Assembly (NCBI GenBank): GCA_948469885.1
Contig: CAOKMT010000020.1
Coordinates: forward strand, 1 to 34,547
Reading direction: 5' to 3'
DNA from: an uncultured Sporosarcina sp.
GTDB lineage: Bacteria; Bacillota; Bacilli; Bacillales_A; Planococcaceae
Length of the DNA: 34,547 nt
Under the pieces are notes generated by a model, which was given only the letters and a program-made list of their open reading frames with translations, did no database searches and had not been told where the DNA came from. The position numbers were made by a program, and so were the translations under genes. Below are positions 5,219 through 31,577 of the stretch, piece by piece (position 1 is the stretch's first letter; every line of letters begins with the position of its first letter).

Positions 5219-5977
5219 ATGATTGATCAGTGGAATCCAAAACTTTACGATGGAGAGCATGATTTCGTTTCTGAATATGGACAAGTGATTTTAGAGATGC
5301 TTGCTCCACGTAAGGGTGAAAGAATATTAGATTTAGGATGTGGAACAGGTGATTTAGCCAACAAATTGGCTTTAATCGGTGTCGATGTTGTCGGTGTCGA
5401 CAGTTCACTAAATATGATTGAAGAAGCGCAGAAGAAATATCCAAAACTTCATTTTTCAGTGGAAGATGCCTTGGCATTACCTTTTGAGGAGGAATTTGAT
5501 GCAGTTTTTTCAAATGCGGTTCTCCATTGGATCAAGACACCACAACCGGCATTGGCTAGTATTTATAAAGGATTGAAGTCGGGCGGCCGATTTGTCGCCG
5601 AATTTGGCGGGGAAGATAACGTGCAACGGATTTCAAACAGCATTTTTGAAGAGAAAGCGAAGTTAGGTTACGCTTCGGATGATACGCATTTCCCTTGGTA
5701 CTATCCAAGTATTGGGCAATACACATCGTTAATGGAGCAAGCAGGATTTCAAGTCGTCTTTGCACAGCATGTCGATCGGCCGACGAGGCTTGAAGGTGAA
5801 GCGGGTTTGAAAAACTGGATTGACATGTTCACCTCAAGTTTTTTCAGTAATGTACCTAAAGAAGATCTACCAATCCTTTTGAAGAATATCGAAAAGTCAT
5901 TGGCAGAAGAGGCTTTCCATGAAGACCATTGGATCGCAGATTATAAAAGGCTACGTGTGATCGGCATAAAAAAATAA
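5219..5977 (+). CDS. Class I SAM-dependent methyltransferase
   Basis: This 252-aa cytoplasmic protein carries the Rossmann-fold methyltransferase core. Motif I is ILDLGCGTGDLA (about residues 37-48), the acidic end of strand 2 is VVGVDSS, and FDAVFSNAVLHWI matches the motif IV region of UbiE/trans-aconitate-methyltransferase-like enzymes. The C-terminal part probably forms the substrate-binding cap. ATG 5219 has AAGGAG nine bases upstream; an earlier TTG at 5165 has none and lies close to the promoter. It is transcribed alone from the promoter at 5125 and faces the catalase gene tail to tail. The acceptor substrate is unknown. Confidence 0.85.
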   Translation: MIDQWNPKLYDGEHDFVSEYGQVILEMLAPRKGERILDLGCGTGDLANKLALIGVDVVGVDSSLNMIEEAQKKYPKLHFSVEDALALPFEEEFDAVFSNAVLHWIKTPQPALASIYKGLKSGGRFVAEFGGEDNVQRISNSIFEEKAKLGYASDDTHFPWYYPSIGQYTSLMEQAGFQVVFAQHVDRPTRLEGEAGLKNWIDMFTSSFFSNVPKEDLPILLKNIEKSLAEEAFHEDHWIADYKRLRVIGIKK

Positions 5978-16530: not shown

Positions 16531-16608
16531 GGAAAGGGCGAGAAATGACATAAGTGATCACCTGGAGTAAAATGGATAGATAATCGACTTGTTGAGGAGG
16601 TGTATGTA

Positions 16609-16959
16609 ATGAAGCGAAGCAAGGTGGAGAAGAAATTGGGCAAACACGGAAAGCAGATCGGTAAGAATACTGTGTATTATAGCCTGCTCCTTTACTATGC
16701 AGCGAAAAGTCCCGCGATACCGAGATCTTCGAAATTGATCGTGCTCGGTGCGCTCAGTTATTTAGTTTTGCCTATCGATCTCATTCCGGATTTTATCCCT
16801 GTCATTGGGCTTGCAGATGATGCGACCGTTATAGTGGCGGCTGTCTATAAAATCATTTCGCATATAGATGACGATGTGAAAAACAAAGCAAAAGCAAGAT
16901 TGAAAAAGCTTTTTGGAAATGATGCATTTGAAGAGCCGATTGATCAGCAGCTCCAATGA
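16609..16959 (+). CDS. DUF1232 (YkvA-like) membrane protein
   Basis: This small protein of 116 aa has the DUF1232 signature: ALSYLVLPIDLIPDFIPVIG followed by LADDATVIVAAVY (about 46-80), a short hydrophobic segment rich in Pro and Asp. The N-terminus and C-terminus are Lys-rich and polar. YkvA of B. subtilis is a similar protein. Function is unknown; membrane association is likely. ATG 16609 is preceded by GAGGAGG at normal distance, and GTG 16600 overlaps that site. A bidirectional terminator follows. Confidence 0.85.
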   Translation: MKRSKVEKKLGKHGKQIGKNTVYYSLLLYYAAKSPAIPRSSKLIVLGALSYLVLPIDLIPDFIPVIGLADDATVIVAAVYKIISHIDDDVKNKAKARLKKLFGNDAFEEPIDQQLQ

Positions 16960-16960
16960 A

Positions 16961-16997
16961 AAAAGCTAACGTGAAAGTACCACGTTAGCTTTTTGTG
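16961..16997. terminator. Bidirectional terminator, DUF1232 / SAM hydrolase genes
   Basis: AAAAGCTAACGTG (16961-16973) and CACGTTAGCTTTT (16981-16993) are perfect arms with a T-run on the plus strand and an A-run that serves the minus strand. Confidence 0.9.
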
Positions 16998-17011: not shown

Positions 17012-17872
17012 TTAATCATACGTAATGCGAGGGGCTTTTCGAATGATCACTTCCCAATTTGTCCCTGTCCCAATTCGGTAAGCATCCGCAAAAGAACCTT
17101 GGTTGATGGCGATGCCAATATTATCGAGGGAATTGACATAAACGAGCGGTTCCCCGATATGTAAGTCGGCAAAGGATCTCCCGTATGTCATAATATTATT
17201 GTAAATGGTTCGACCGTCAGTAACGATTGAGACTTCAAGCGCGTCTCCATATGATTGGCCAAGTTGGTTAAATTGTGTACGACTAATGTTCGTCCAAATA
17301 TTACCAAACGGTCGATCGATAATATCGACGTGTCCAAAAATCGTTTCATCCTGTAGCCTTGCATGTTTCAATGGTAATGTAACAATTTTTGCTGGATCGA
17401 GTGCCGGTCCGACTTCTTCAAAAGAAATGACGCCTGCTGAGAGACGAGCCGCTGTATAGGCGAAAATATCACGACCATGGAATGTATGGGATTCGCCGGA
17501 GTTTGGCAGACGATTCTTCGTCTCATCAATTTCCCGTACCTCGGTAATTTGGATGAATTGTTGCACGTGCGTCAAAGTCCCGTTATCTGGTGTGACGATA
17601 TAATGGTCATCTTTTGTCTTGGCGACGATGCTCAGTCGATCTGAACCTACGCCAGGATCGACAATGGAGATAAAAACGGTCCCTTTCGGCCAATAGCCGA
17701 TCGCTTGCAATAAACGATAAGATGCTTCCCATATATTGTATTGTGGAATTTGGTGTGTAATTTCGTAAATGGATAGGCTGAATTGAACGGAGTTTGCTAC
17801 ACCGTGCATGGCACTCACCGCACCGTCACTATTCCCGAAATCCGATTGAAATACTAATAATCCATTTGTCAT
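17012..17872 (-). CDS. S-adenosylmethionine hydrolase family protein (DUF62)
   Basis: This 286-aa cytoplasmic protein is of the SAM hydroxide adenosyltransferase family, which splits S-adenosylmethionine with water into adenosine and methionine. Family motifs are LLVFQSDFGNSDGAVSAM (about 5-22), SIVDPGVGSDR, TPDNGTLT and TFHGRDIFAYTAARL, followed by the C-terminal beta-barrel. ATG 17872 follows AAGGAGC eight bases upstream. The open frame continues to 18016, but that part is the T-box leader RNA and has no start site. The T-box specifier reads AUG, so expression should rise when tRNA-Met is uncharged. That fits release of methionine from SAM as a rescue reaction. The enzymatic activity is inferred from family, and other halide-using members exist. 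Confidence 0.88.
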   Translation of the reverse strand: MTNGLLVFQSDFGNSDGAVSAMHGVANSVQFSLSIYEITHQIPQYNIWEASYRLLQAIGYWPKGTVFISIVDPGVGSDRLSIVAKTKDDHYIVTPDNGTLTHVQQFIQITEVREIDETKNRLPNSGESHTFHGRDIFAYTAARLSAGVISFEEVGPALDPAKIVTLPLKHARLQDETIFGHVDIIDRPFGNIWTNISRTQFNQLGQSYGDALEVSIVTDGRTIYNNIMTYGRSFADLHIGEPLVYVNSLDNIGIAINQGSFADAYRIGTGTNWEVIIRKAPRITYD

Positions 17873-17940
17873 CGCAAATCCGCTCCTTATTAATATTTTA
17901 GCATGGACGAATCCCCCTTTAGAAAGGGGAGAAAGAAAAT

Positions 17941-18251
17941 AAAAAAAGCCCGCCCAAATCAACCATACGATTGAAAGGACGAGACTACCACTCGTGTTAC
18001 CACCTTTATTCGTCACTTATTCACATAAGTGACCTTTACAAGTACAGAATTTCAGCATGATGGAATTCTAGACTGTGGTTTGAATAACGGGTACCAACTC
18101 CCGCTGATATCTACTGGTGCATTCATCGCACGTTCAATTCAGAGCTCGGAGGCCATGTTCAAGTGGTCGGTTTTCGCTTCTTCTCAGCTGCCGAAGCTTT
18201 CTGTCCAAAACCTGTGCACTTTACTTTTCTCGTCGAGGCTTTTAACTATTG
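17941..18251 (-). ncRNA. T-box leader, specifier AUG (Met)
   Basis: This is a complete T-box leader. Stem I base: CTCG at 18237-18234 and GAG at 18231-18229 pair with CTCCGAG just after the specifier. The AGTA motif is at 18225-18222. Opposite it is GAAC followed by ATG at 18156-18154 and then a purine, the same spacing as GAAA-GGC-A in B. subtilis glyQS. A 9-bp stem III hairpin (GTCACTTAT/ATAAGTGAC) follows. The antiterminator is AAAGG, bulge TGGTAAC (18002-17996), ACGAG, loop, then CTCGT and CCTTT. Bulge TGGT pairs with ACCA, matching an A discriminator. The bulge differs from TGGNACC at one base. The competing terminator uses CTCGTCC (17983-17977) and GGGCGGG and ends in a T-run at 17947-17941. 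Confidence 0.88.
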
Positions 18252-18257
18252 ATTCAT

Positions 18258-18286
18258 AATTTACACGATTCAAAAGTGAAAGTCAA
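18258..18286 (-). promoter_or_regulatory. SigA-type promoter of the T-box transcript
   Basis: On the minus strand the -35 is TTGACT (18286-18281), the spacer is 17 bp, and the -10 is TAAATT (18263-18258). Transcription would start near 18251, directly before stem I of the T-box. Confidence 0.6.
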
Positions 18287-18393
18287 CTGGAATTGGCATG
18301 AAGTTTGTGTGACGACTGAAAATCGTGTCTTTCGCTTTTCACTAGCGTGTATGATAAGATTGTTTTCACATAAGAAGAGGACGTGAAAGAGAA

Positions 18394-18765
18394 TTGATCA
18401 CAATTAATGTACCAAAGCCAGACGTGACGATCGTTCAACGAACACAAAAAGAAAATGTAGAAGCGCCAATCAAGCCTGTATACGGTTTTATTGATCTCCA
18501 TGAAATCCCGCGTGACAAGGGCGGCATCATTTTATTTTACAATGATCGGGACGAATTATTATTCGTCGGCAAAGCGCGGAAGCTTCGTCAACGTGTGCGC
18601 AAACATTTTGAGGATAATGTATCGCCGCTTCGAAACCACCGGGAAGAAGTGCGTAAAATTTCGGCCATCGTTGTTGAAGCGCCGATGGATCGTGAAATTT
18701 TGGAAACATATATCATTAACACACAATATGCTAAATATAATGTCGACAAAGTGTTTTATAAGTGA
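18394..18765 (+). CDS. GIY-YIG domain protein (nucleotide excision repair endonuclease-like)
   Basis: This 123-aa protein has a single GIY-YIG-type domain. GGIILFYNDRDELLFVGKA (about 47-65) aligns with the two strands of the fold, followed by RKLRQRVRKHF with the conserved Arg, and REILETYIINTQYAKYN, which supplies the metal-binding Glu and final Asn. The name-giving residues are degenerate (GII and FVG instead of GIY and YIG). It is annotated in Bacilli as a UvrC-like endonuclease; activity is unproven. The start is TTG 18394 with GAAAGAG upstream. It precedes sbcDC but is separated by a terminator, so it is probably a separate unit. Confidence 0.78.
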   Translation: MITINVPKPDVTIVQRTQKENVEAPIKPVYGFIDLHEIPRDKGGIILFYNDRDELLFVGKARKLRQRVRKHFEDNVSPLRNHREEVRKISAIVVEAPMDREILETYIINTQYAKYNVDKVFYK

Positions 18766-18769
18766 ACTG

Positions 18770-18800
18770 AAAGAGCTGATGCATAATCGGCTCTTTTTTA
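18770..18800 (+). terminator. Terminator after GIY-YIG gene
   Basis: AAAGAGCTGAT (18770-18780) pairs with ATCGGCTCTTT (18786-18796) including one T-G wobble, and a T-run follows. Confidence 0.8.
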
Positions 18801-18910
18801 ATGTTGTCATCGTGCTATTCCTCGTAAGTGGGGAAATGCGGTGCAAGATGTTCATTTCACAATTAATATTTAGTAAAATAGAAAAAAGTATAAGGGAAGG
18901 GGAGAGAAAG

Positions 18911-20059
18911 TTGAAGTTTTTTCATACTGCGGATTGGCATCTAGGGAAGCTCGTGCAAGGCGTTTACATGACAGACGGGCAAAGATATGTCTTGGATCAA
19001 CTCATAGAAGCGATTGAAGAAGAGAAGCCAGATGCGGTTATTATCGCGGGAGATTTGTATGATCGGGCAGTCCCGCCGACCGAAGCGGTTGCATTATTCG
19101 ACGAAGTGTTGGAAAAGATCATTATCGATTTAGAAACACCCGTACTTGCCATCGGAGGAAATCACGATAGTCCAGGAAGGCTCCATTTCGGAAGCAATCT
19201 GATGCGGTCGAACGGTTACCATATCGTAGGTCAGATGACGAAAGAACTCGAGCCGGTCGTTTTGTCAGATGAATATGGGGAAGTCCATTTTCATCTCGTT
19301 CCCTTTACGGATCCTTCAATACTTAAGCATTTGTATGAGGATGATACAATTGCCAGTCATCATGAAGCGATGCGAAAAGTAACGGGTGCTATTCAAGATA
19401 AGATGGAGGATCATGCGCGGCATGTGTTCGTTGGACATGCTTTCGTCACGCCATCAGGAGAGCGGGAAGATAACACAAGTGACGCTGAGCGACCGATTGC
19501 AATCGGCGGTGCTGAATATGTATCAGCTCATCTATTTGAACCCTTCCATTACACGGCACTTGGCCATTTGCACCAAGCACATTATGTATTGAATGAAACG
19601 ATCCGTTATGCAGGGTCTCCAATGAAATATTCGATTTCGGAAGAGCATCATCAAAAAGGGTATCTCATCGTCGAAATGGATGGAGATGGAACAGTGTCCA
19701 TCGAAAAGCGGCTTTTGAAACCGAAACACGATATGCGCACTGTGGAAGGAACAATGGCAGAACTTTTACAGCATCCAATTAGTGAAGATTATGTATTTGT
19801 CAAGCTCCATGATAAGACGCCGGTTTTATTTCCGATGGAAAAAATACGTTCAGTTTATCCGAATGCGATGCATATTGAAAGAAAAGTACATAAACAGACG
19901 ACGGATAATGGAAAAACGAAGCCAAGTGTACTACACGAGAAGCAAACGGATATAGAACTTTTCCAATCATTTTATGCAGAGATGAAAGGTGAATCAGCGG
20001 ATGAAGAGACGACTGCCCTATTTGCCGAAATTTTGCATGATGTCAAGCATGAAAAATAG
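18911..20059 (+). CDS. sbcD: Nuclease SbcCD subunit D (exonuclease)
   Basis: This 382-aa Mre11-type nuclease subunit works with SbcC to cut hairpins and degrade double-strand ends. The five metallophosphoesterase motifs appear in order: FHTADWHLGK (3-12), GDLYDRAVPP, GGNHDSPGRL, VGHAFV and GHLHQAH. A cap domain that contacts SbcC follows. The start is TTG 18911, nine bases after AAGGGAAGGGG; the frame is open upstream to 18491, but that part overlaps the GIY-YIG gene and its terminator and is not coding. The sbcC gene starts 15 bp after the stop with its own AAGGAGC, so they form an operon. Confidence 0.93.
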   Translation: MKFFHTADWHLGKLVQGVYMTDGQRYVLDQLIEAIEEEKPDAVIIAGDLYDRAVPPTEAVALFDEVLEKIIIDLETPVLAIGGNHDSPGRLHFGSNLMRSNGYHIVGQMTKELEPVVLSDEYGEVHFHLVPFTDPSILKHLYEDDTIASHHEAMRKVTGAIQDKMEDHARHVFVGHAFVTPSGEREDNTSDAERPIAIGGAEYVSAHLFEPFHYTALGHLHQAHYVLNETIRYAGSPMKYSISEEHHQKGYLIVEMDGDGTVSIEKRLLKPKHDMRTVEGTMAELLQHPISEDYVFVKLHDKTPVLFPMEKIRSVYPNAMHIERKVHKQTTDNGKTKPSVLHEKQTDIELFQSFYAEMKGESADEETTALFAEILHDVKHEK

Positions 20060-20074
20060 AAAGGAGCGATCGAC

Positions 20075-23000
20075 ATGCGACCGATTCAATTGAAAATGAC
20101 CGCTTTCGGCCCGTACAAAGCAACTGAAATTGTCAATTTTGAAGAACTTGGCGAGCATCAGTTATTTGTTATTTCGGGTGCAACAGGTGCAGGAAAGACA
20201 ACGATTTTCGACGGAATTTGTTTTGCGCTTTACGGACAGGCGAGTGGAGAAGATCGGACGGATGTGCGTGCGATGCGAAGTGATTTTGCGGAAGGAGATG
20301 TCCAAACGACAGTTGAATTGACGTTTGCGATACAGCAGCAGATATACCGGATCATGCGGCAAATTCCATACATAAAAGCTGGTAACAAATCTGAGACACC
20401 GGGACGTGTCGAGTTATTTATGAGAAAAGGAGTGCAGGAAGTACCTGTCGTCGATCGGCAAATCGTTTCTGAAATTAATGAGAAAGTAGTGGAAATCCTT
20501 GGCTTTACACAACCTCAGTTCAGTCAAATCGTTATGCTGCCGCAAGGTGAGTTCCGCAAGTTCCTTACATCCAGTACGGAAAATAAAGAAGCGATCATGC
20601 GTAAAATTTTTAAAACGGACTCGTACCGAGAAGTTGTCGATCGGCTAAAGATAAAAAAAGATGAAGCGCAGATGGCTTTGCAAAAAGAAAACAATGACCA
20701 TGAAAATCATGTGAAAAAGATAGCTTCCGTGCTTCCGAAAAGAGAATCTCTTCTATTCGACGTGCTGGCAGTTGAGCATGCCAACACCCACCAAATTGTT
20801 GAGGCACTGGGCGCAGAATGGGCATATTACGCAGAGAAAGTGAAGCGAGACCAGGAGCAATACAATACAGCTTTTAAACAGCACGGCGAGATGCTTTCGA
20901 ATTATTATACTGCGAAAAATATAAACGAACGTTTCGATGAACTTGAACAGCAAGCAGGAGTGTTTGACGAATTGTCGGAACGGTTGCCGGAAATGGAAAA
21001 GAAAGCGGAACGTCTTTCGGCAGCAGAGCGAACAATTACGATTGAACAACTAGACCTTCAATATACCGAACTGAAAGCGGAAGTTGCGCAAAAGGCGAGC
21101 GAGGTCACACGGTCGTTAAAACTACTCCAAGAGACTGAGGACAAATTGGGACGGACAGAAGCGGCATACAAAGAAGAGGAAAGCAAAAAAAGAGAGCGGG
21201 AACAATTGACGGAAAGCTTGATTCGTTTAAATGATTCACTGCCAACGGTTGAGGAATTGGCCGCTAAAAAAGAGATGATTGCCACACTGGAGACAAAAAC
21301 GGGCGAATTACAAGAACTTTTGAATACGGCAATTGTAACCGCGGAGGACGAAAATCAAAAGGTCCTCGCTTATCAAAAGGAAATCGACGAACTTGAAGAG
21401 AAGCTCCTCCCGTTGGATAATCTTGTCGAGGAATTGAACCGAACGATTGAGCAAAGCCGAATCGTTGAGGAGTACCTTTTAAATAGGCAACAAGTCGCTA
21501 CTTTTGAAAAAGCCCAAAGTGCACAGCTCCTTACCTATGAAACGAATAAAAAGGAATATGATCAGTTAGCCGAAGATTGGCTTATGAATGAAGCGGCGAC
21601 ACTGGCAGAAACATTGCATGACGGCGACCATTGCCCGGTCTGCGGAAGTATCGAACATCCTAAAAAAGCTCACCGAACGGATGAAGAGATGGTTGTTTCG
21701 AAAGAGGCGCTTGAAAAGGCGAAAGAACGTCTCGCAAAAACGGAAAGTGATTATAGAATGTCGATCGCCAATTATGAGAGCGCCATGGAGCGGTTGGAAG
21801 TACAGGCGAAAGCATTGGGCAATTTCGATATTGCTCCTGAAGATGCAGAAACAGTCAGTCGTCAATGTAAGAAGGCGAAAATGGATCTGGAAACAGAACT
21901 TAAACACCTTCGTGAAAGCCGGTCGAAATTGACGGATCTGAAAGCGAAGCTAAAACAGCAACATGTAATTGCAGAAAATGCTTTCCAGAATAAAGTGACT
22001 TCCGAACAAAAAATGTTTGAGCACAAGGCGCTTGTGGAAAAGGAACGTACGCTTTACGACCATACATTGCACGCGATTCCTGAAGATGTCAGAGATTTAA
22101 CAGCGCTCAAAAACCGGATCGCACAATTAACGGCGAAAAAGAAAGAGATGGATCGTGCATGGGAAAAGGTTCAACAACTCCGTGAAGAAGTACAGAAGTC
22201 GCTGACGACCGCGAAATCGACCTATTTACACGTGAAAAACGCATTAACAGAAGCGGAGAATAAAAAAGAAATAGCCGAAGAACGTTTCAAATCTGCGCTT
22301 GCCACTTCGGAGTTTTCGACAGAAGCCGCTTACCGGCAGGCGAGGCTGGATGAGGCGACTCGCTCTGCGCTGAAACAGGAGCTGGAACAATTTAAACAGC
22401 GACGCCATACAGTGCAAGAGACAATCGTCCGATTGAAGACAGTGCTCGAAGGGAAAGAGAAATCGGATCTTGCAGAATGGGAAGCTTCATTGGCTAAATT
22501 GAAAGATCTATATGAAAGTGCGCTTGCCGATGTTAATCGTTCGATTGAATATGAAAAAGCGGTTATGGAATTGAAACAAAACATTTTGGATGCAACCGAA
22601 AGGATCACACAACTTGAACGAAAATTCGGCAAGGTTGCGGATTTGTATGATATTGTCAGAGGTCAAAATGATCGTCGATTGTCATTCGAAAGATATATCC
22701 AAATTGAATATTTGGAACGGATTATCCAATCGGCGAATGAACGACTCTCCCAATTATCGAATGGCCAATTTGATTTTATGAGAAGTGATCGCCAAGAAAC
22801 AAGAGGAAGACAAAGTGGTCTAAGTCTTGATGTTTACGACGCCTATACAGGACAAACACGCGATGTGAAAACTTTATCGGGCGGCGAGAAATTCAATGCG
22901 TCTTTATGTCTTGCACTCGGGATGTCCGACGTTATTCAAAGTTTCCAAGGGTCTGTCTCGGTCGATACGATGTTCATAGATGAAGGATTTGGCTCACTTG

Positions 23001-23170
23001 ATGAAGAATCTTTGAACAAGGCGATTGATACGCTGATCGAATTACAAAAAGCTGGACGAATGATAGGTGTCATTTCTCACGTAGAAGAGTTGAAAGCCGC
23101 ATTTCCTGCGATTTTGGAAGTGAGGAAGTCTAAAGAAGGTTATAGCCGGACGAAATTTTTTGTGAAATAA
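20075..23170 (+). CDS. sbcC: Nuclease SbcCD subunit C (ATPase)
   Basis: This 1031-aa Rad50/SMC-like ATPase is the partner of SbcD in processing DNA ends and hairpins. Walker A is GATGAGKT (35-42), followed by the Q-loop region FSQIVMLPQGEFRKFL. Two long, Glu/Lys-rich coiled coils (about 170-510 and 530-890) flank the zinc hook CPVC (520-523). The C-terminal ATPase half has the signature LSGGEKFNASLCLALGMSD (about 934-952), Walker B MFIDEGFGSLDEE and the final His switch region VISHVEEL. The length is normal for the family. ATG 20075 has AAGGAG. A strong terminator ends the operon. Confidence 0.95.
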   Translation: MRPIQLKMTAFGPYKATEIVNFEELGEHQLFVISGATGAGKTTIFDGICFALYGQASGEDRTDVRAMRSDFAEGDVQTTVELTFAIQQQIYRIMRQIPYIKAGNKSETPGRVELFMRKGVQEVPVVDRQIVSEINEKVVEILGFTQPQFSQIVMLPQGEFRKFLTSSTENKEAIMRKIFKTDSYREVVDRLKIKKDEAQMALQKENNDHENHVKKIASVLPKRESLLFDVLAVEHANTHQIVEALGAEWAYYAEKVKRDQEQYNTAFKQHGEMLSNYYTAKNINERFDELEQQAGVFDELSERLPEMEKKAERLSAAERTITIEQLDLQYTELKAEVAQKASEVTRSLKLLQETEDKLGRTEAAYKEEESKKREREQLTESLIRLNDSLPTVEELAAKKEMIATLETKTGELQELLNTAIVTAEDENQKVLAYQKEIDELEEKLLPLDNLVEELNRTIEQSRIVEEYLLNRQQVATFEKAQSAQLLTYETNKKEYDQLAEDWLMNEAATLAETLHDGDHCPVCGSIEHPKKAHRTDEEMVVSKEALEKAKERLAKTESDYRMSIANYESAMERLEVQAKALGNFDIAPEDAETVSRQCKKAKMDLETELKHLRESRSKLTDLKAKLKQQHVIAENAFQNKVTSEQKMFEHKALVEKERTLYDHTLHAIPEDVRDLTALKNRIAQLTAKKKEMDRAWEKVQQLREEVQKSLTTAKSTYLHVKNALTEAENKKEIAEERFKSALATSEFSTEAAYRQARLDEATRSALKQELEQFKQRRHTVQETIVRLKTVLEGKEKSDLAEWEASLAKLKDLYESALADVNRSIEYEKAVMELKQNILDATERITQLERKFGKVADLYDIVRGQNDRRLSFERYIQIEYLERIIQSANERLSQLSNGQFDFMRSDRQETRGRQSGLSLDVYDAYTGQTRDVKTLSGGEKFNASLCLALGMSDVIQSFQGSVSVDTMFIDEGFGSLDEESLNKAIDTLIELQKAGRMIGVISHVEELKAAFPAILEVRKSKEGYSRTKFFVK

Positions 23171-27526: not shown

Positions 27527-27571
27527 CTTGTGTAATGTAATTCAACTTAGTTGAATTACATTACACAAGAT
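27525..27571. promoter_or_regulatory. 47-bp perfect palindrome, probable operator
   Basis: The arms at 27525-27547 and 27549-27571 are exact 23-bp reverse complements around a single T (27548). The left arm begins ATCTTGTGTAATG, and the centre is CAACTTAGTTG. It starts inside the -10 box, covers the likely transcription start and ends two bases before the ribosome binding site AAGGGGTG (27573). It therefore could block transcription when bound by a dimer or tetramer, or fold into a hairpin in front of the ribosome binding site. No T-run follows. The rest of 27343-27497 holds only a 6-bp hairpin (GTGCCG/CGGCAC) near 27362-27395. Confidence 0.75.
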
Positions 27572-27586
27572 GAAGGGGTGTATAAA

Positions 27587-28855
27587 ATGACAACGACCAG
27601 AATTCCAGGATTTTATCGTTTATCCACTAAAGAAAGATTTGATATTGTTACAAAGGGGCGCGGTCTATCGGAGGATGAAATAACCTATCTGTCCGGAGAT
27701 CAAGCTTTATCGATGGATTTAGCAGATTCAATGATCGAGAATGTTGTAGGTCAAATCGGAATCCCAGTTGGAGTTGCAACGAATTTTAAAGTGAATGGAA
27801 AAGATATATTTATCCCGATGGCAACTGAAGAACCATCTATTGTGGCGGCAGCGAGTAATGCGGCAAAAGCTACATATGAACATGGTGGATTCTTTACATC
27901 GATGAGTGGAACAATTATGCGTGGACAAATTCAAGTACTCGACATTGCTGATCCTTACGCAGCAAAAGCAAAGATTTTTGAGCATAAAGATGAGATTTTG
28001 AATCATTGCAATGAGAAAGATCCAACATTAGTTTCTTTAGGCGGTGGAGCTAAAGATTTAGAAGTGCATATTATCCCGACAACGAATCAGATAATGCTTG
28101 TTATCCATCTTATCGTTGATACAAAAGATGCAATGGGTGCCAATGCTGTCAATACGATGGCTGAATCGGTTGCACCGATGATTGAAACAATGACGGGCGG
28201 CCGAGTCATTCTAAGAATTATTTCGAATTTAGCGGACCGTAGATTAGTGCGTGCACGGGCAGTGTTCTCAGCGGAAGCTCTTGGAGGTAAAGAAGTTGTG
28301 GAAAACATTGTAAGCGCTTTCGAATTAGCAGATTTTGATCCGTATCGGGCAGCTACCCATAATAAAGGAATTATGAATGGAATATCGGCAGTGGTGTTAG
28401 CGACCGGTAATGATACACGTGCTGTAGAAGCAGGTGCACATGCTTACGCGTCTATTTCGGGTCATTATAAATCCTTAACGAAGTGGGAAATAAATGCGGA
28501 AGGTAATTTATCAGGATCAATTGAACTTCCTATGGCGGTTGGAATTGTAGGGGGTGCAACAAAAACACATCCGGTTGCACAAGCTTCGTTAAAAATTATG
28601 GGGATTGACTCTGCCGAAGAGCTATCGGGCTGCATTGCTGCAACAGGCCTTGCACAAAATGCTGCGGGTCTACGCGCCTTATCTACTGAAGGCATCCAAA
28701 GGGGCCATATGACTTTACATGCAAGAAACCTAGCGGTGATGGCCGGTGCAGCTAAATCTGAAATTGATGGGATTGTTGCGCAAGCGGTAGCAGAAAAAGA
28801 TCTAAGGTATGATCGGATTTTGGAGATAACTAAAGCTGTTCAGAGAGGTGAATAA
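27587..28855 (+). CDS. mvaA: Class II HMG-CoA reductase, degradative
   Basis: This 422-aa HMG-CoA reductase resembles that of Pseudomonas mevalonii. The class II catalytic residues can be placed with a constant offset: Glu82 in ATEEPSIVAAAS, Lys260 in HNKGIMNG, Asp276 in GNDTRAVEAGAHA, and His374 in RGHMTLHARN. DAMGANAVNT (181-190) is in the nucleotide-binding region. The reaction interconverts mevalonate plus CoA with HMG-CoA, using NAD(P). A biosynthetic role is the alternative, but no HMG-CoA synthase or mevalonate kinase is near and HMG-CoA lyase is in the same operon, so oxidation of mevalonate is likelier. ATG 27587 has AAGGGGTG six bases upstream. A cre-like sequence lies inside at about 28309. 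Confidence 0.92.
   Translation: MTTTRIPGFYRLSTKERFDIVTKGRGLSEDEITYLSGDQALSMDLADSMIENVVGQIGIPVGVATNFKVNGKDIFIPMATEEPSIVAAASNAAKATYEHGGFFTSMSGTIMRGQIQVLDIADPYAAKAKIFEHKDEILNHCNEKDPTLVSLGGGAKDLEVHIIPTTNQIMLVIHLIVDTKDAMGANAVNTMAESVAPMIETMTGGRVILRIISNLADRRLVRARAVFSAEALGGKEVVENIVSAFELADFDPYRAATHNKGIMNGISAVVLATGNDTRAVEAGAHAYASISGHYKSLTKWEINAEGNLSGSIELPMAVGIVGGATKTHPVAQASLKIMGIDSAEELSGCIAATGLAQNAAGLRALSTEGIQRGHMTLHARNLAVMAGAAKSEIDGIVAQAVAEKDLRYDRILEITKAVQRGE
28309..28322. promoter_or_regulatory. cre-like sequence inside mvaA
   Basis: TGTAAGCGCTTTCG matches TGWAANCGNTNWCA except at the last base. Intragenic cre sites can block elongation in Bacillus, but this may be chance within codons. Confidence 0.25.
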
Positions 28856-28856
28856 T

Positions 28857-29300
28857 TTGTCTGATAAGCGTAGCGAAAGAAGCGAAACACCAACTCATAA
28901 AAAAAGGTATTTAGAAATATTAGGAGATACGATTGTACCTAACCAATTACTTTTATCCATTATTATAAGTATTGCAATAAGCTTAGGGGGATATAATCTC
29001 GGTCTTTGGTTTTTCCCGTCCATCGCTAGTGAAAACATGATTACTTCTTATTCTTTGCTTCTTGGCATTACAGGAACCGTCCTTTCATTGCTATTTTGTT
29101 CTATGATCTTCAAGCCAAAACGGATATTAATTGAAGAGGAAACTTCATTTGAAAGTATGAGGGAAGTCTTTGAGGATTTACAATTGGATGCGCGTGAAGA
29201 GTTGCGCTTAATAGAGGATGATTCGATCACACAAAAAGAGCTGGAAGAACTTGGCGTTCTTGAGCATTTTCGAGCTCTTGGAGGTGAAGAGAAGAAATGA
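28857..29300 (+). CDS. Two-helix membrane protein, likely permease partner
   Basis: This 147-aa protein has a basic N-terminus, two hydrophobic helices (about 30-50 and 64-86) and a long, acidic, charged C-terminal part rich in Glu. I do not recognise the family. It starts at TTG 28857, two bases after the mvaA stop, with AGAGGTG six bases upstream. Its last four bases overlap the ATG of the permease gene, so the two are translationally coupled. In tripartite tricarboxylate transporters a small TctB protein with four helices precedes TctA, and this protein sits in the same place with half the helices. It may be a TctB analogue. Confidence 0.75.
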   Translation: MSDKRSERSETPTHKKRYLEILGDTIVPNQLLLSIIISIAISLGGYNLGLWFFPSIASENMITSYSLLLGITGTVLSLLFCSMIFKPKRILIEEETSFESMREVFEDLQLDAREELRLIEDDSITQKELEELGVLEHFRALGGEEKK

Positions 29301-30652
29301 GTTTATTAGTAACTGCAATTTTATTTGCATTAATTGGAGCCATTGTGTTTTCATTAATCGGATTGATTTCGGGAACAGATGAAACCGCAGTTATGGTTCC
29401 ACTTACTTTACTAGTCATCTTATTAGGTGCACCTCCCGCAGCTGTCTTTTCATTCTTCATGGCGGCCGTTTTAGCAAAGCACCTTACACATGCTGTACCA
29501 ACAGCCTTGATGGGAATTCCTGGCGATACAACTGCAGTTCCTTTAATCGATCATGCTACGACACTTAGAAGAATGGGAATGCCTCATGTTGCGCTTAGAA
29601 AGATGATATCTGGTGGCGTTATTGGTGCCTTTATTGCTTTGCCAACCGCAGTGGTATTGGGACAATTTTTAGGTCAGTTTGCCGATTTCTTTACATCATC
29701 AGCTGGGATTATCTTCACGCTCGCCGCTTTATTGATTGCTTATTTCTCACCTGGAAAATGGGTAAGCGTTTTAATGATTGTTCCTTTTGCTTTCTTTATT
29801 AAAAGTTTAGATTTAATGAGCTTTACTTTATTGGATAAACATTTAACGATCAGCTTTTTTTTAGGAATAGCAGTAGGCCCCATGTTTTCTGATATTTTAT
29901 TTGCTACTTCATCAACTGCTAAACGTTCAATTGAAAGAACAGAGCCCAAGGAGTATCATTTAGCCCCTGAAACGAAAGCGTGGAAAGGGTACTTTCCAAA
30001 CCCTTTGAAAATACTCACGGGCAGACAAAAGTTTTTCACTGCCATTACGACATTTATTTCTTCGTTGACTTTTGTATTTAGCCCTGTCGGCATGACATCT
30101 TTAATGGGAGAAATAGTAGGGTCACGCACAAAAGGTGCTTATAAAAAATCAACGACGAGTTTAACAGTCATGAATGGTGTTACTGAATCTACATACATTG
30201 CAGAAGCGATCATACCACTTATCGCTTTCGGGATTCCTTTAAGTCCTGTTGCATTAGGTCCCGCTTCTCCATTGTTTAACGCGCCACCTATTTTTACTGT
30301 GGAACCTGTCAATAACTTGCACACCTACTTGACTTCATGGGACTTTTTCTTATACGGTGCAATCGGTCTTGTTGTTGCGACACTAATTGCTTATCCATTC
30401 TCCATGAACTATGCAAGAAAAGCATCTGTACTTGTGATGAAATATGTGAGCCAGGAGGCGATCGTTGCAATGTTCATAGGGTTAGCTTGTCTACTTGCAT
30501 TCCATGAGGCGCAACTAGTCGGTATCGCTCTCACCTTTACAGTTGCAGCTGTCGGGGGGCTTTTGAATCGTATTCTTGGAATTGGGGCAGGCGTACAGTT
30601 CATGGTCTTCTATGCTTCATCCTGGATTATGATGACTTTATTTGGATTTTAA
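29297..30652 (+). CDS. TctA-like permease, candidate mevalonate transporter
   Basis: This 451-aa membrane protein has about twelve hydrophobic segments. GIPGDTTAVPLIDH (about 74-87) and later FGIPLSPVALGPASPLF repeat the GIPG-type loop seen twice in TctA, the large subunit of tripartite tricarboxylate transporters. No periplasmic-type binding protein (TctC) is encoded nearby, which TctA normally needs. The ATG at 29297 overlaps the preceding gene by four bases. By position between HMG-CoA reductase and lyase, it most likely imports mevalonate or a related branched hydroxy acid. The substrate is inference from context only. Confidence 0.78.
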   Translation: MSLLVTAILFALIGAIVFSLIGLISGTDETAVMVPLTLLVILLGAPPAAVFSFFMAAVLAKHLTHAVPTALMGIPGDTTAVPLIDHATTLRRMGMPHVALRKMISGGVIGAFIALPTAVVLGQFLGQFADFFTSSAGIIFTLAALLIAYFSPGKWVSVLMIVPFAFFIKSLDLMSFTLLDKHLTISFFLGIAVGPMFSDILFATSSTAKRSIERTEPKEYHLAPETKAWKGYFPNPLKILTGRQKFFTAITTFISSLTFVFSPVGMTSLMGEIVGSRTKGAYKKSTTSLTVMNGVTESTYIAEAIIPLIAFGIPLSPVALGPASPLFNAPPIFTVEPVNNLHTYLTSWDFFLYGAIGLVVATLIAYPFSMNYARKASVLVMKYVSQEAIVAMFIGLACLLAFHEAQLVGIALTFTVAAVGGLLNRILGIGAGVQFMVFYASSWIMMTLFGF

Positions 30653-30671
30653 TAGAAAGGAGTTTGTGTAA

Positions 30672-31577
30672 ATGTCATATGGATTGCCTAAAAAGGTATT
30701 TATTAGAGAAGTAGGGCCAAGAGATGGTCTACAGAACGAAAGTAAATTTATTGCTACACAGGACAAAATCGATTGGATAAACCAACTTTCTTTGACTGGG
30801 CTCAACTATATAGAAGTAACTTCCTTTGTTAACCCTACATGGATTCCTGCCTTAGCCGACGCAGATACTGTGACCAAACAGATTAAAAAAGCTCCCGGGG
30901 TGACATATGCAGCGCTCGTGCCGAATAGGAGAGGGTTAGACCGTGCGTTGGAAAGTCAAATAGACGAAGTTTCAGTTTTCATCTCCGCGAGTGAGTCTCA
31001 TAATAAGGAGAATATTAACAAGACAATAAGCGAGACAGAGATCGTTCTATCCGAAGTTGTACGTGAATCGATTGCAAATAACAAATCTATAAGAGGTTAT
31101 ATTTCCACTGTATTTGGATGCCCTTTCGAGGGAAAAGTGGAAATTAACGAAGTGATTCGATTAACCGATTCACTATTTGAAATGGGTATAGAGGAATTAT
31201 CTTTAGGAGATACGATTGGTGTGGCTCATCCATTACAAGTGAGAATATTACTGGAAGAACTTTTAAAGCGCTATCCACAAGATAAAATTGCAATGCATTT
31301 CCATAATACACGTGGAACGGCTATGGCGAATGTACTCGCCTCTTTAGAGATGGGCATCACAAAGTTTGATAGTTCCCTAGGAGGTCTTGGGGGGTGTCCG
31401 TATGCACCAGGTGCATCGGGGAATTTGGCAACAGATGATCTTCATTACATGCTTTCAAGTATGGGGATTCAAACAAATATTAACACTGCTAAGCTACATT
31501 CAGCTGCATTGTTTATTCAAGAAAAAATGAAAAAACCTTTAGATAGCCATACAGTCAAATATAGAATGAAAGAATGA
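30672..31577 (+). CDS. mvaB: Hydroxymethylglutaryl-CoA lyase
   Basis: This 301-aa enzyme cleaves HMG-CoA to acetoacetate and acetyl-CoA. The N-terminal REVGPRDGLQNE supplies Arg17 and Asp18, MHFHNTRGTA gives the two metal-binding His, and GGLGGCPYAPGASGNLATDD is the lyase signature with the catalytic Cys. It follows the permease by 19 bp with AAAGGAG, and is the last gene of the operon. With mvaA it repeats the mvaAB logic of mevalonate catabolism in P. mevalonii. Homologues also serve leucine breakdown (YngG), but no other leucine-catabolic gene is here. A terminator shared with gntR follows. Confidence 0.93.
   Translation: MSYGLPKKVFIREVGPRDGLQNESKFIATQDKIDWINQLSLTGLNYIEVTSFVNPTWIPALADADTVTKQIKKAPGVTYAALVPNRRGLDRALESQIDEVSVFISASESHNKENINKTISETEIVLSEVVRESIANNKSIRGYISTVFGCPFEGKVEINEVIRLTDSLFEMGIEELSLGDTIGVAHPLQVRILLEELLKRYPQDKIAMHFHNTRGTAMANVLASLEMGITKFDSSLGGLGGCPYAPGASGNLATDDLHYMLSSMGIQTNINTAKLHSAALFIQEKMKKPLDSHTVKYRMKE

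Follow-up and report, generated by a model that had tools for sequence, protein, structure and literature searches.

T-box leaders that read methionine have been described as the met leader of Staphylococcus aureus and the yxjH, metEF and metQ leaders of Lactobacillus; in the passages of the two papers that concern them, these leaders have a stem I specifier loop carrying AUG, an antiterminator and a competing terminator (PMC3771891, PMC6004538). The leader described here, from an uncultured Sporosarcina sp., shares all of these elements. It differs from the known Met T-boxes in its target, which belongs to a family of SAM-cleaving enzymes rather than to biosynthesis or transport, and in its genome methionine genes are preceded by S-boxes. 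The target is a gene of the DUF62 / SAM hydroxide adenosyltransferase family. It lies in a window of 34,547 nucleotides, by which we mean the whole stretch of DNA that was analysed (contig CAOKMT010000020.1).

A Met T-box before a cytosolic gene has a precedent in Listeria. Wels et al. 2008 placed such a T-box before lmo2587 in three Listeria genomes, where the gene is entered as 'Met related cytosolic hypothetical', and the part of the paper that holds this entry (Table 2) does not name the enzyme family (PMC2494555). The DUF62 locus of L. monocytogenes that we retrieved has the gene between fdhF and mdrT, with a leader that includes AUG and an AGGTGG antiterminator (L049). The order of the tag numbers would place lmo2587 at this locus. 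From the neighbouring genes fdhF and mdrT and the T-box, lmo2587 is very probably the ortholog of the window gene. The sequence-only reading knew of no description of the pairing; this has to be amended, since the portion of the 2008 paper cited above already prints the T-box, although the enzyme was not recognised there. Beyond that paper we found no description of a T-box with a DUF62 or SAM hydrolase gene in a search that lay outside the TBDB and RegPrecise tables, so an earlier mention is possible, and no mention was found in the main text of the TBDB paper. No paper among the matches listed ties DUF62 or SAM hydrolase to an ECF or methionine transporter. What is new is the breadth of the link between T-box and DUF62, the frequent downstream ECF operon, the apparently exported homologs and the S-box control in the same genome.

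The features of the locus are collected in Table 1. A cmscan of positions 17800-18420 (621 bases) matched RF00230 over the complete model (1-219, E 3.1e-20), and every element of a full T-box leader, as claimed from the sequence alone, can be read in it. At 89.8 bits the match falls about 3 bits short of the gathering score (93), which is why the whole-window scan, run at the gathering threshold, does not list the leader; the covariance search that had been proposed returns a full-length match that stays below the cut-off. When the whole genome was scanned the leader had an E-value of 4.2e-20 and ranked tenth of 18 T-box matches. The terminator folds at -15.9 kcal/mol, and 0 of 200 shuffles were as good; the fold of the whole leader is unremarkable (z -1.39, with 10 of 100 shuffles equally good). 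Terminator and antiterminator share the sequence CUCGUCC, as 5' strand of the former and 3' strand of the latter. Formation of the terminator thus takes up the 3' half of the antiterminator, and the two structures are mutually exclusive. Promoter-like sites occur in the region at two per 801 bases against 1.7 expected, which makes the site upstream of the leader weak evidence when taken alone.

Table 1. Features of the T-box and DUF62 unit, in order of transcription (window coordinates)
Feature	Position	Strand	Basis
Promoter-like TTGACT-N17-TAAATT	18258..18286	-	9/12 consensus matches
T-box leader (RF00230)	17972..18245	-	covariance model, complete, 89.8 bits
AGUA motif, stem I (5' side of specifier loop)	18222..18225	-	read from sequence and covariance-model alignment
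Specifier codon AUG	18154..18156	-	covariance alignment, 33 aligned leaders, position rule from own-genome synthetase T-boxes
Stem III hairpin	18012..18033	-	sequence and alignment; seven pairs double-changed in relatives
Antiterminator, with UGGU bulge at 17999-18002	17974..18007	-	sequence and alignment
Intrinsic terminator hairpin and U tract	17941..17985	-	hairpin 17948-17985; fold z -4.77
DUF62 / SAM hydroxide adenosyltransferase family gene, 286 aa, triad D72-R79-H132	17012..17872	-	profile and alignments
Palindrome 3' of the gene, probable terminator between convergent genes	16959..16997	.	by eye, not scored

The specifier codon was predicted with a rule that takes the three bases ending six bases before the stem I closing motif. 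This rule was benchmarked on the T-boxes of the same genome, whose downstream genes were named by NCBIfam. Among the printed candidates it gave the correct codon in six of eight synthetase leaders (serS UCC, trpS UGG, ileS AUC, thrS ACC, alaS GCU and glyS GGC); the tyrS leader is one base off, and in the hisS leader the script missed the closing motif, with CAC present by eye. The trpE leader, which does not belong to a synthetase, breaks the rule, its UGG lying two bases further up. For the window leader the script prints four candidates, and only AUG falls within the specifier loop of the covariance-model alignment; no specifier for another amino acid was seen there. AUG, which the sequence-only reading had placed by aligning the loop with glyQS, is invariant in an alignment of 33 chosen DUF62 leaders (A107, T108 and G109 of the window sequence there), and among the 16 leaders of this genome with a specifier readable by eye (L001-L014, L016, L017) it is unique to the window leader. 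Applied strictly to the 91 rows that bear the core motif, the script prints AUG in 83, nothing in seven and UGG in one (L128, where the closing motif is displaced); by eye all eight rows without a script AUG have one.

The loop could in principle be read in a shifted frame, for example as CAU for histidine or UGG for tryptophan. Shifts of one or two bases between leaders do occur, as the tyrS and trpE leaders show, and the UGGU bulge could wobble-pair with G73 of tRNA-Trp. However, all four bases (C, A, G or U) occur 5' of AUG in relatives, which means that CAU is not conserved; the spacing from GAA is variable too, and AUG stays constant throughout. Together with the performance of the rule on the synthetase leaders this makes a specifier other than AUG very improbable, and the histidine and tryptophan readings were rejected on the variable 5' neighbour and the invariant ATG.

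The UGGU bulge is complementary to a tRNA ending in ACCA. The tRNA ends were taken from a one-contig genome of the same genus (G220) instead of the genome itself, in which a loose pattern for tRNA-Met gave 29 matches (24 in the reversed control) and ARAGORN found no tRNA in five loci. By reading, the tRNAs of G220 with anticodon CAU are three different sequences, namely an initiator, an elongator Met tRNA and what is probably an Ile CAU tRNA, and they have A73. This bears out the fit to ACCA that had been noted earlier. The hisS leader of the window genome has a UGGA bulge although tRNA-His of G220 has C73, and the trpS leader has UGGU with a G73 in tRNA-Trp of G220. These mismatches indicate that the bulge rule is not strict, so the match between UGGU and A73 is support and not proof. 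The same caution holds for the codon: a passage on the S. aureus met T-box reports that changing AUG to UGC (Cys) left binding of initiator tRNA in vitro unaffected, so that an AUG specifier alone is no proof of tRNA identity; of the tRNAs, that leader favours the initiator (PMC3771891).

DUF62 genes are patchy in their distribution, with matches in 40 of 261 genomes of the family and in 51 of 398 genomes sampled from the class. The family set has 39 loci including the window, a truncated copy in G215 having been left out, and an order-level search covered the same 261 genomes with the same 40 matching and added nothing. The class set has 46 loci outside the family, after removal of four family genomes and of a truncated copy in G514; one genome, G271, has two DUF62 copies and the better one was analysed. 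A third set consists of 80 of at least 566 confirmed relatives with named records, and overlaps the family set.

The scan of family DUF62 genes for upstream T-boxes, suggested at the outset, found them in 35 of the 39 loci (the core motif is present in 34, and in L035 as a variant), with AUG read by the script in 32 and by eye in three (L035, L037, L059). Outside the family a T-box is present in 21 of the 46 class loci, with AUG in 19 by script and in two by eye (L249, L274). It is also present in 28 of the 80 named loci listed, including Listeria marthii, Psychrobacillus, Rummeliibacillus, Oceanobacillus, Lederbergia and Salirhabdus. A strain of Sporosarcina psychrophila (L103) has the unit as well. 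No T-box motif was seen in any of the 14 loci of one class genus (g45), and no T-box among the named loci listed under Clostridia, Lachnospiraceae or Coriobacteria titles. The fractions in the class and named sets rule out a T-box on all DUF62 genes, and conservation across loci rules out a local accident. Three family loci (L022, L026, L031) seem to have lost the middle of the leader: by eye, an apparent promoter and the first bases of stem I lead directly into the terminator hairpin. A gene behind such a remnant should be attenuated but no longer switchable. In another family locus, L056, no part of the leader was found.

The core motif with an AUG specifier occurs in 83 of 181 oriented loci, and mononucleotide shuffling of their upstream regions gave it in 0 of 9050 sequences. 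For the core motif alone the figures are 91 of 181 and 75 of 9050; the 181 include loci fetched twice, and the patterns were written after some loci had been seen. The alignment of DUF62 leaders has 38 consensus pairs, 20 of them with at least one double change. Double changes fall in stem III (7), the hairpin between stems I and III (5), the distal arm of stem I (4) and the antiterminator (two), and through them the alignment supports the leader fold. Of the 52 T-box-negative named loci listed, 40 were scanned, and none of these showed a riboswitch above the Rfam gathering threshold, one which the window T-box would also fail. The same scans of T-box-negative loci returned one Bacillaceae-1 RNA in L177, far from the gene. 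In the window a tandem pair of these RNAs (RF01690) lies at 65-131 and 169-234, with 78.3 and 71.9 bits.

The list of open reading frames starts the DUF62 gene at a GTG at 18016, inside the leader. The start is likely to be the ATG at 17872, which is preceded by AAGGAG at 17888-17883. Between leader and gene there is no further open reading frame of at least 80 aa on the same strand, in keeping with the earlier statement that the T-box directly precedes the gene. The upstream neighbour, a GIY-YIG gene at 18394-18765, is divergent and the downstream neighbour, a DUF1232 gene at 16600-16959, is convergent, so the DUF62 unit is monocistronic. Control of the GIY-YIG gene by the T-box was ruled out because that gene is on the opposite strand. 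The GIY-YIG gene codes for a stand-alone domain and is followed by sbcD and sbcC (18394-23170), divergent from the T-box unit. Elsewhere in the window, at 27551-31577, an HMG-CoA reductase-like gene, a two-gene set resembling a tricarboxylate transporter and an HMG-CoA lyase-like gene stand in a row, as judged by eye from the translations; this set would suit catabolic mevalonate use.

The window protein matches both domains of the family, PF01887 (SAM_HAT_N, 169.3 bits, E 5.5e-50, cut-off 26.3) and PF20257 (SAM_HAT_C, 80.6 bits, E 1.1e-22, cut-off 25.5). It is 49-71% identical to seven aligned homologs, and D72, R79 and H132 are invariant in the eight proteins, the window protein included. 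In pairwise comparison the Thermotoga chain 2zbu matches the triad, and the chains 7ccg and 2q6o have other residues in place of D72 and H132. A review states, in the passage on this point, that the His-Arg-Asp triad is confined to DUF62 proteins (PMC10491745). With a triad apparently of the DUF62 type the expected chemistry is SAM hydrolysis and not halogenation, and the window protein is expected to be a SAM hydrolase rather than a halogenase. The domains and the triad are shared with PH0463, StDUF62 and the (R)-SAM hydrolases, to which the halogenases FlA and SalL are related. The window gene differs from these in its T-box control and in its scores against the NCBIfam (R)-SAM hydrolase equivalogs, which are below the cut-offs (NF058624, 136.6 against 350 bits; NF053629, 110.6 against 470 bits); the fluorinase model TIGR04507 is below its cut-off as well (107.5 against 400 bits). 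We have therefore filed the protein as a DUF62-family member and not under a named equivalog.

Our preferred reading, to which we give a probability of about 0.7, is that an attenuation T-box specific for tRNA(CAU)-Met controls a lone DUF62 SAM hydrolase, so that under methionine shortage methionine would be recovered from SAM. When tRNA-Met is charged the terminator would form and the DUF62 gene would be off. When methionine is short, uncharged tRNA-Met would pair with the AUG of stem I and with the UGGU of the antiterminator, and transcription would continue. The enzyme would then split SAM into methionine and adenosine, with the unusable (R,S) epimer or SAM from outside as the probable substrate, and the recovered methionine would feed the charging of Met-tRNA. 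We infer the tRNA sensing, induction, substrate and flux from the leader anatomy, the AUG, the conservation, the family and triad, and the genomic context.

A direct rescue of methionine from SAM had been proposed from the sequence alone. The conservation of the T-box on DUF62 genes in many Bacilli speaks for it; against it, StDUF62 has the (R,S) epimer of SAM as its preferred substrate and is weak in salt, and the authors of that study, published in 2025, question whether its role lies in (R,S)-SAM hydrolysis, regard the physiological role as doubtful and consider that some DUF62 proteins may serve an unknown function other than (R,S)-SAM removal (PMC12120602). The selectivity of StDUF62, described there and in the review passage, would also fit an enzyme that removes (R,S)-SAM as housekeeping, in which case the T-box would do no more than minor tuning. 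The build-up of the epimer is however not expected to track the charging of tRNA-Met, and under a starvation switch an enzyme meant to clear it would be silent whenever methionine and SAM abound. AUG is moreover the specifier seen in the T-boxes, and we regard the housekeeping role as improbable.

The window genome has 12 S-box leaders over the cut-off. The downstream proteins of ten were scanned and eight are recognised enzymes of methionine, SAM or MTA salvage, namely MsrA, a homocysteine methyltransferase/MTHFR, a MetE-like synthase, a cystathionine gamma-synthase-type enzyme, MtnX, a homocysteine synthase, MetK and MTR kinase. The remaining two are a transposase and a lipoprotein without a match at the strict threshold; of the two leaders without a scanned gene, one has no open reading frame in its truncated locus and one is unplaced. 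With S-boxes before SAM synthesis and a T-box before SAM cleavage, the simplest reading is methionine salvage when tRNA-Met is uncharged. The same arrangement could instead make the enzyme an eraser of the SAM signal, lowering SAM so that SAM-repressed S-box genes open when tRNA-Met is uncharged and SAM is still present. That Met-tRNA and SAM would have separate RNA sensors in a genome with so many S-boxes agrees with such a role. The epimer preferred by StDUF62 (PMC12120602) is, on the other hand, not necessarily the S-box ligand, and this scheme, which we hold to be rather unlikely, offers no role for the ECF operons and the exported-looking homologs.

These operons and homologs bear on the source of the substrate. 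A plasmid of Enterococcus faecium carries a T-box-bearing DUF62 gene with genes for an ECF S component (PF07155), a double ABC ATPase and an ECF T component downstream. The proteins of this operon were searched against the DUF62 loci, on the same strand and at most 3.5 kb downstream. An S or A component is found in 39 of the 46 class loci (S in 39), in 8 of the 39 family loci (S in 7) and in 40 of the 80 named loci listed (S in 25), counts that depend on how much sequence follows the gene, about 1.5-2.5 kb in most loci. In four clostridial loci (L124, L126, L133, L146) DUF62 and the ECF ATPase are separated by a protein of roughly 500-565 aa whose start resembles an acetyltransferase by eye. 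A DUF62-ECF operon is present in a Psychrobacillus; the DUF62 genes of the window and of Listeria both stand alone. One Enterococcus ECF S query had no match in the window genome, which is weak evidence as the assembly is 88% complete.

The S component is labelled riboflavin by Pfam and NCBIfam (PRK13661, over its cut-off), and other PF07155 members have been linked to vitamin B6, according to part of one paper (PMC9997740). These labels, with the frequency of the S component behind DUF62 in the class loci, would agree with a substrate other than SAM, such as another adenosylated sulfonium or related nutrient that is imported by the ECF transporter in relatives and yields methionine or a precursor. 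The characterised members of the family nevertheless cleave SAM and the triad is that of the SAM hydrolases, so we consider another substrate unlikely, if less so than the housekeeping and signal-erasing roles. Among known transporters, mtsABC of Vibrionales, described in a section of one paper as a putative methionine-related ECF transporter under MetJ, shares the link between ECF and methionine regulation (PMC4239095).

A hydrophobic leader is present, by eye and by a hydropathy window, on the DUF62 proteins of E. coli, Aeromonas caviae and the class genome G271. Nine short extensions flagged by hydropathy are encoded in leaders, among them the GTG reading of the window gene, and were taken as artefacts. 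The G271 locus (L276) has a tandem DUF62 pair, one with a lipoprotein-like start and one with a secretion-like leader. In two E. coli loci (L303, L305) the DUF62 gene, whose start resembles a signal peptide, adjoins a gene taken for yigE, and the copy in L305 looks split; DUF62 was found in 2374 of 5426 complete E. coli genomes in one search that asked for at least 80% coverage.

In the one Aeromonas record, A. caviae L304, a MetJ-box-like tandem lies at 5906-5921, at -31 from the DUF62 start codon. It matches 13 of 16 positions of the consensus; 2 of 5000 shuffles were as good, and the next best stretch in the 12.8 kb locus matches 10 of 16. The E. coli DUF62 genes have no MetJ box by score, the best being 8 and 9 of 16, and a 12 of 16 stretch 3 kb from E. 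coli DUF62 indicates that a score of 12 can arise away from such a gene.

ECF import in some organisms and export in others suggest an extracellular substrate, and the picture is in this respect wider than the intracellular rescue first proposed. The preferred reading of methionine recovery under a Met T-box may then be one case of a widespread scavenging of SAM, in which a dedicated ECF transporter would bring in extracellular SAM or its (R,S) epimer for cleavage inside the cell, or an exported DUF62 protein would cleave it outside. Methionine shortage would switch the route on, through a Met T-box in Bacilli and possibly through MetJ in Aeromonas, and the lone gene of the window would be a reduced form. 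We put this wider view forward tentatively, as having less than an even chance of being right.

In the cell from which the window derives, two RNA sensors, the S-box for SAM and the T-box for Met-tRNA, would flank the balance between SAM and methionine. The Met-tRNA switch is regulatory evidence that DUF62 genes may serve methionine supply in many Bacilli, and the ECF operon points to a substrate that is taken up. The pairing with a T-box suggests a purpose for the puzzling DUF62 family.
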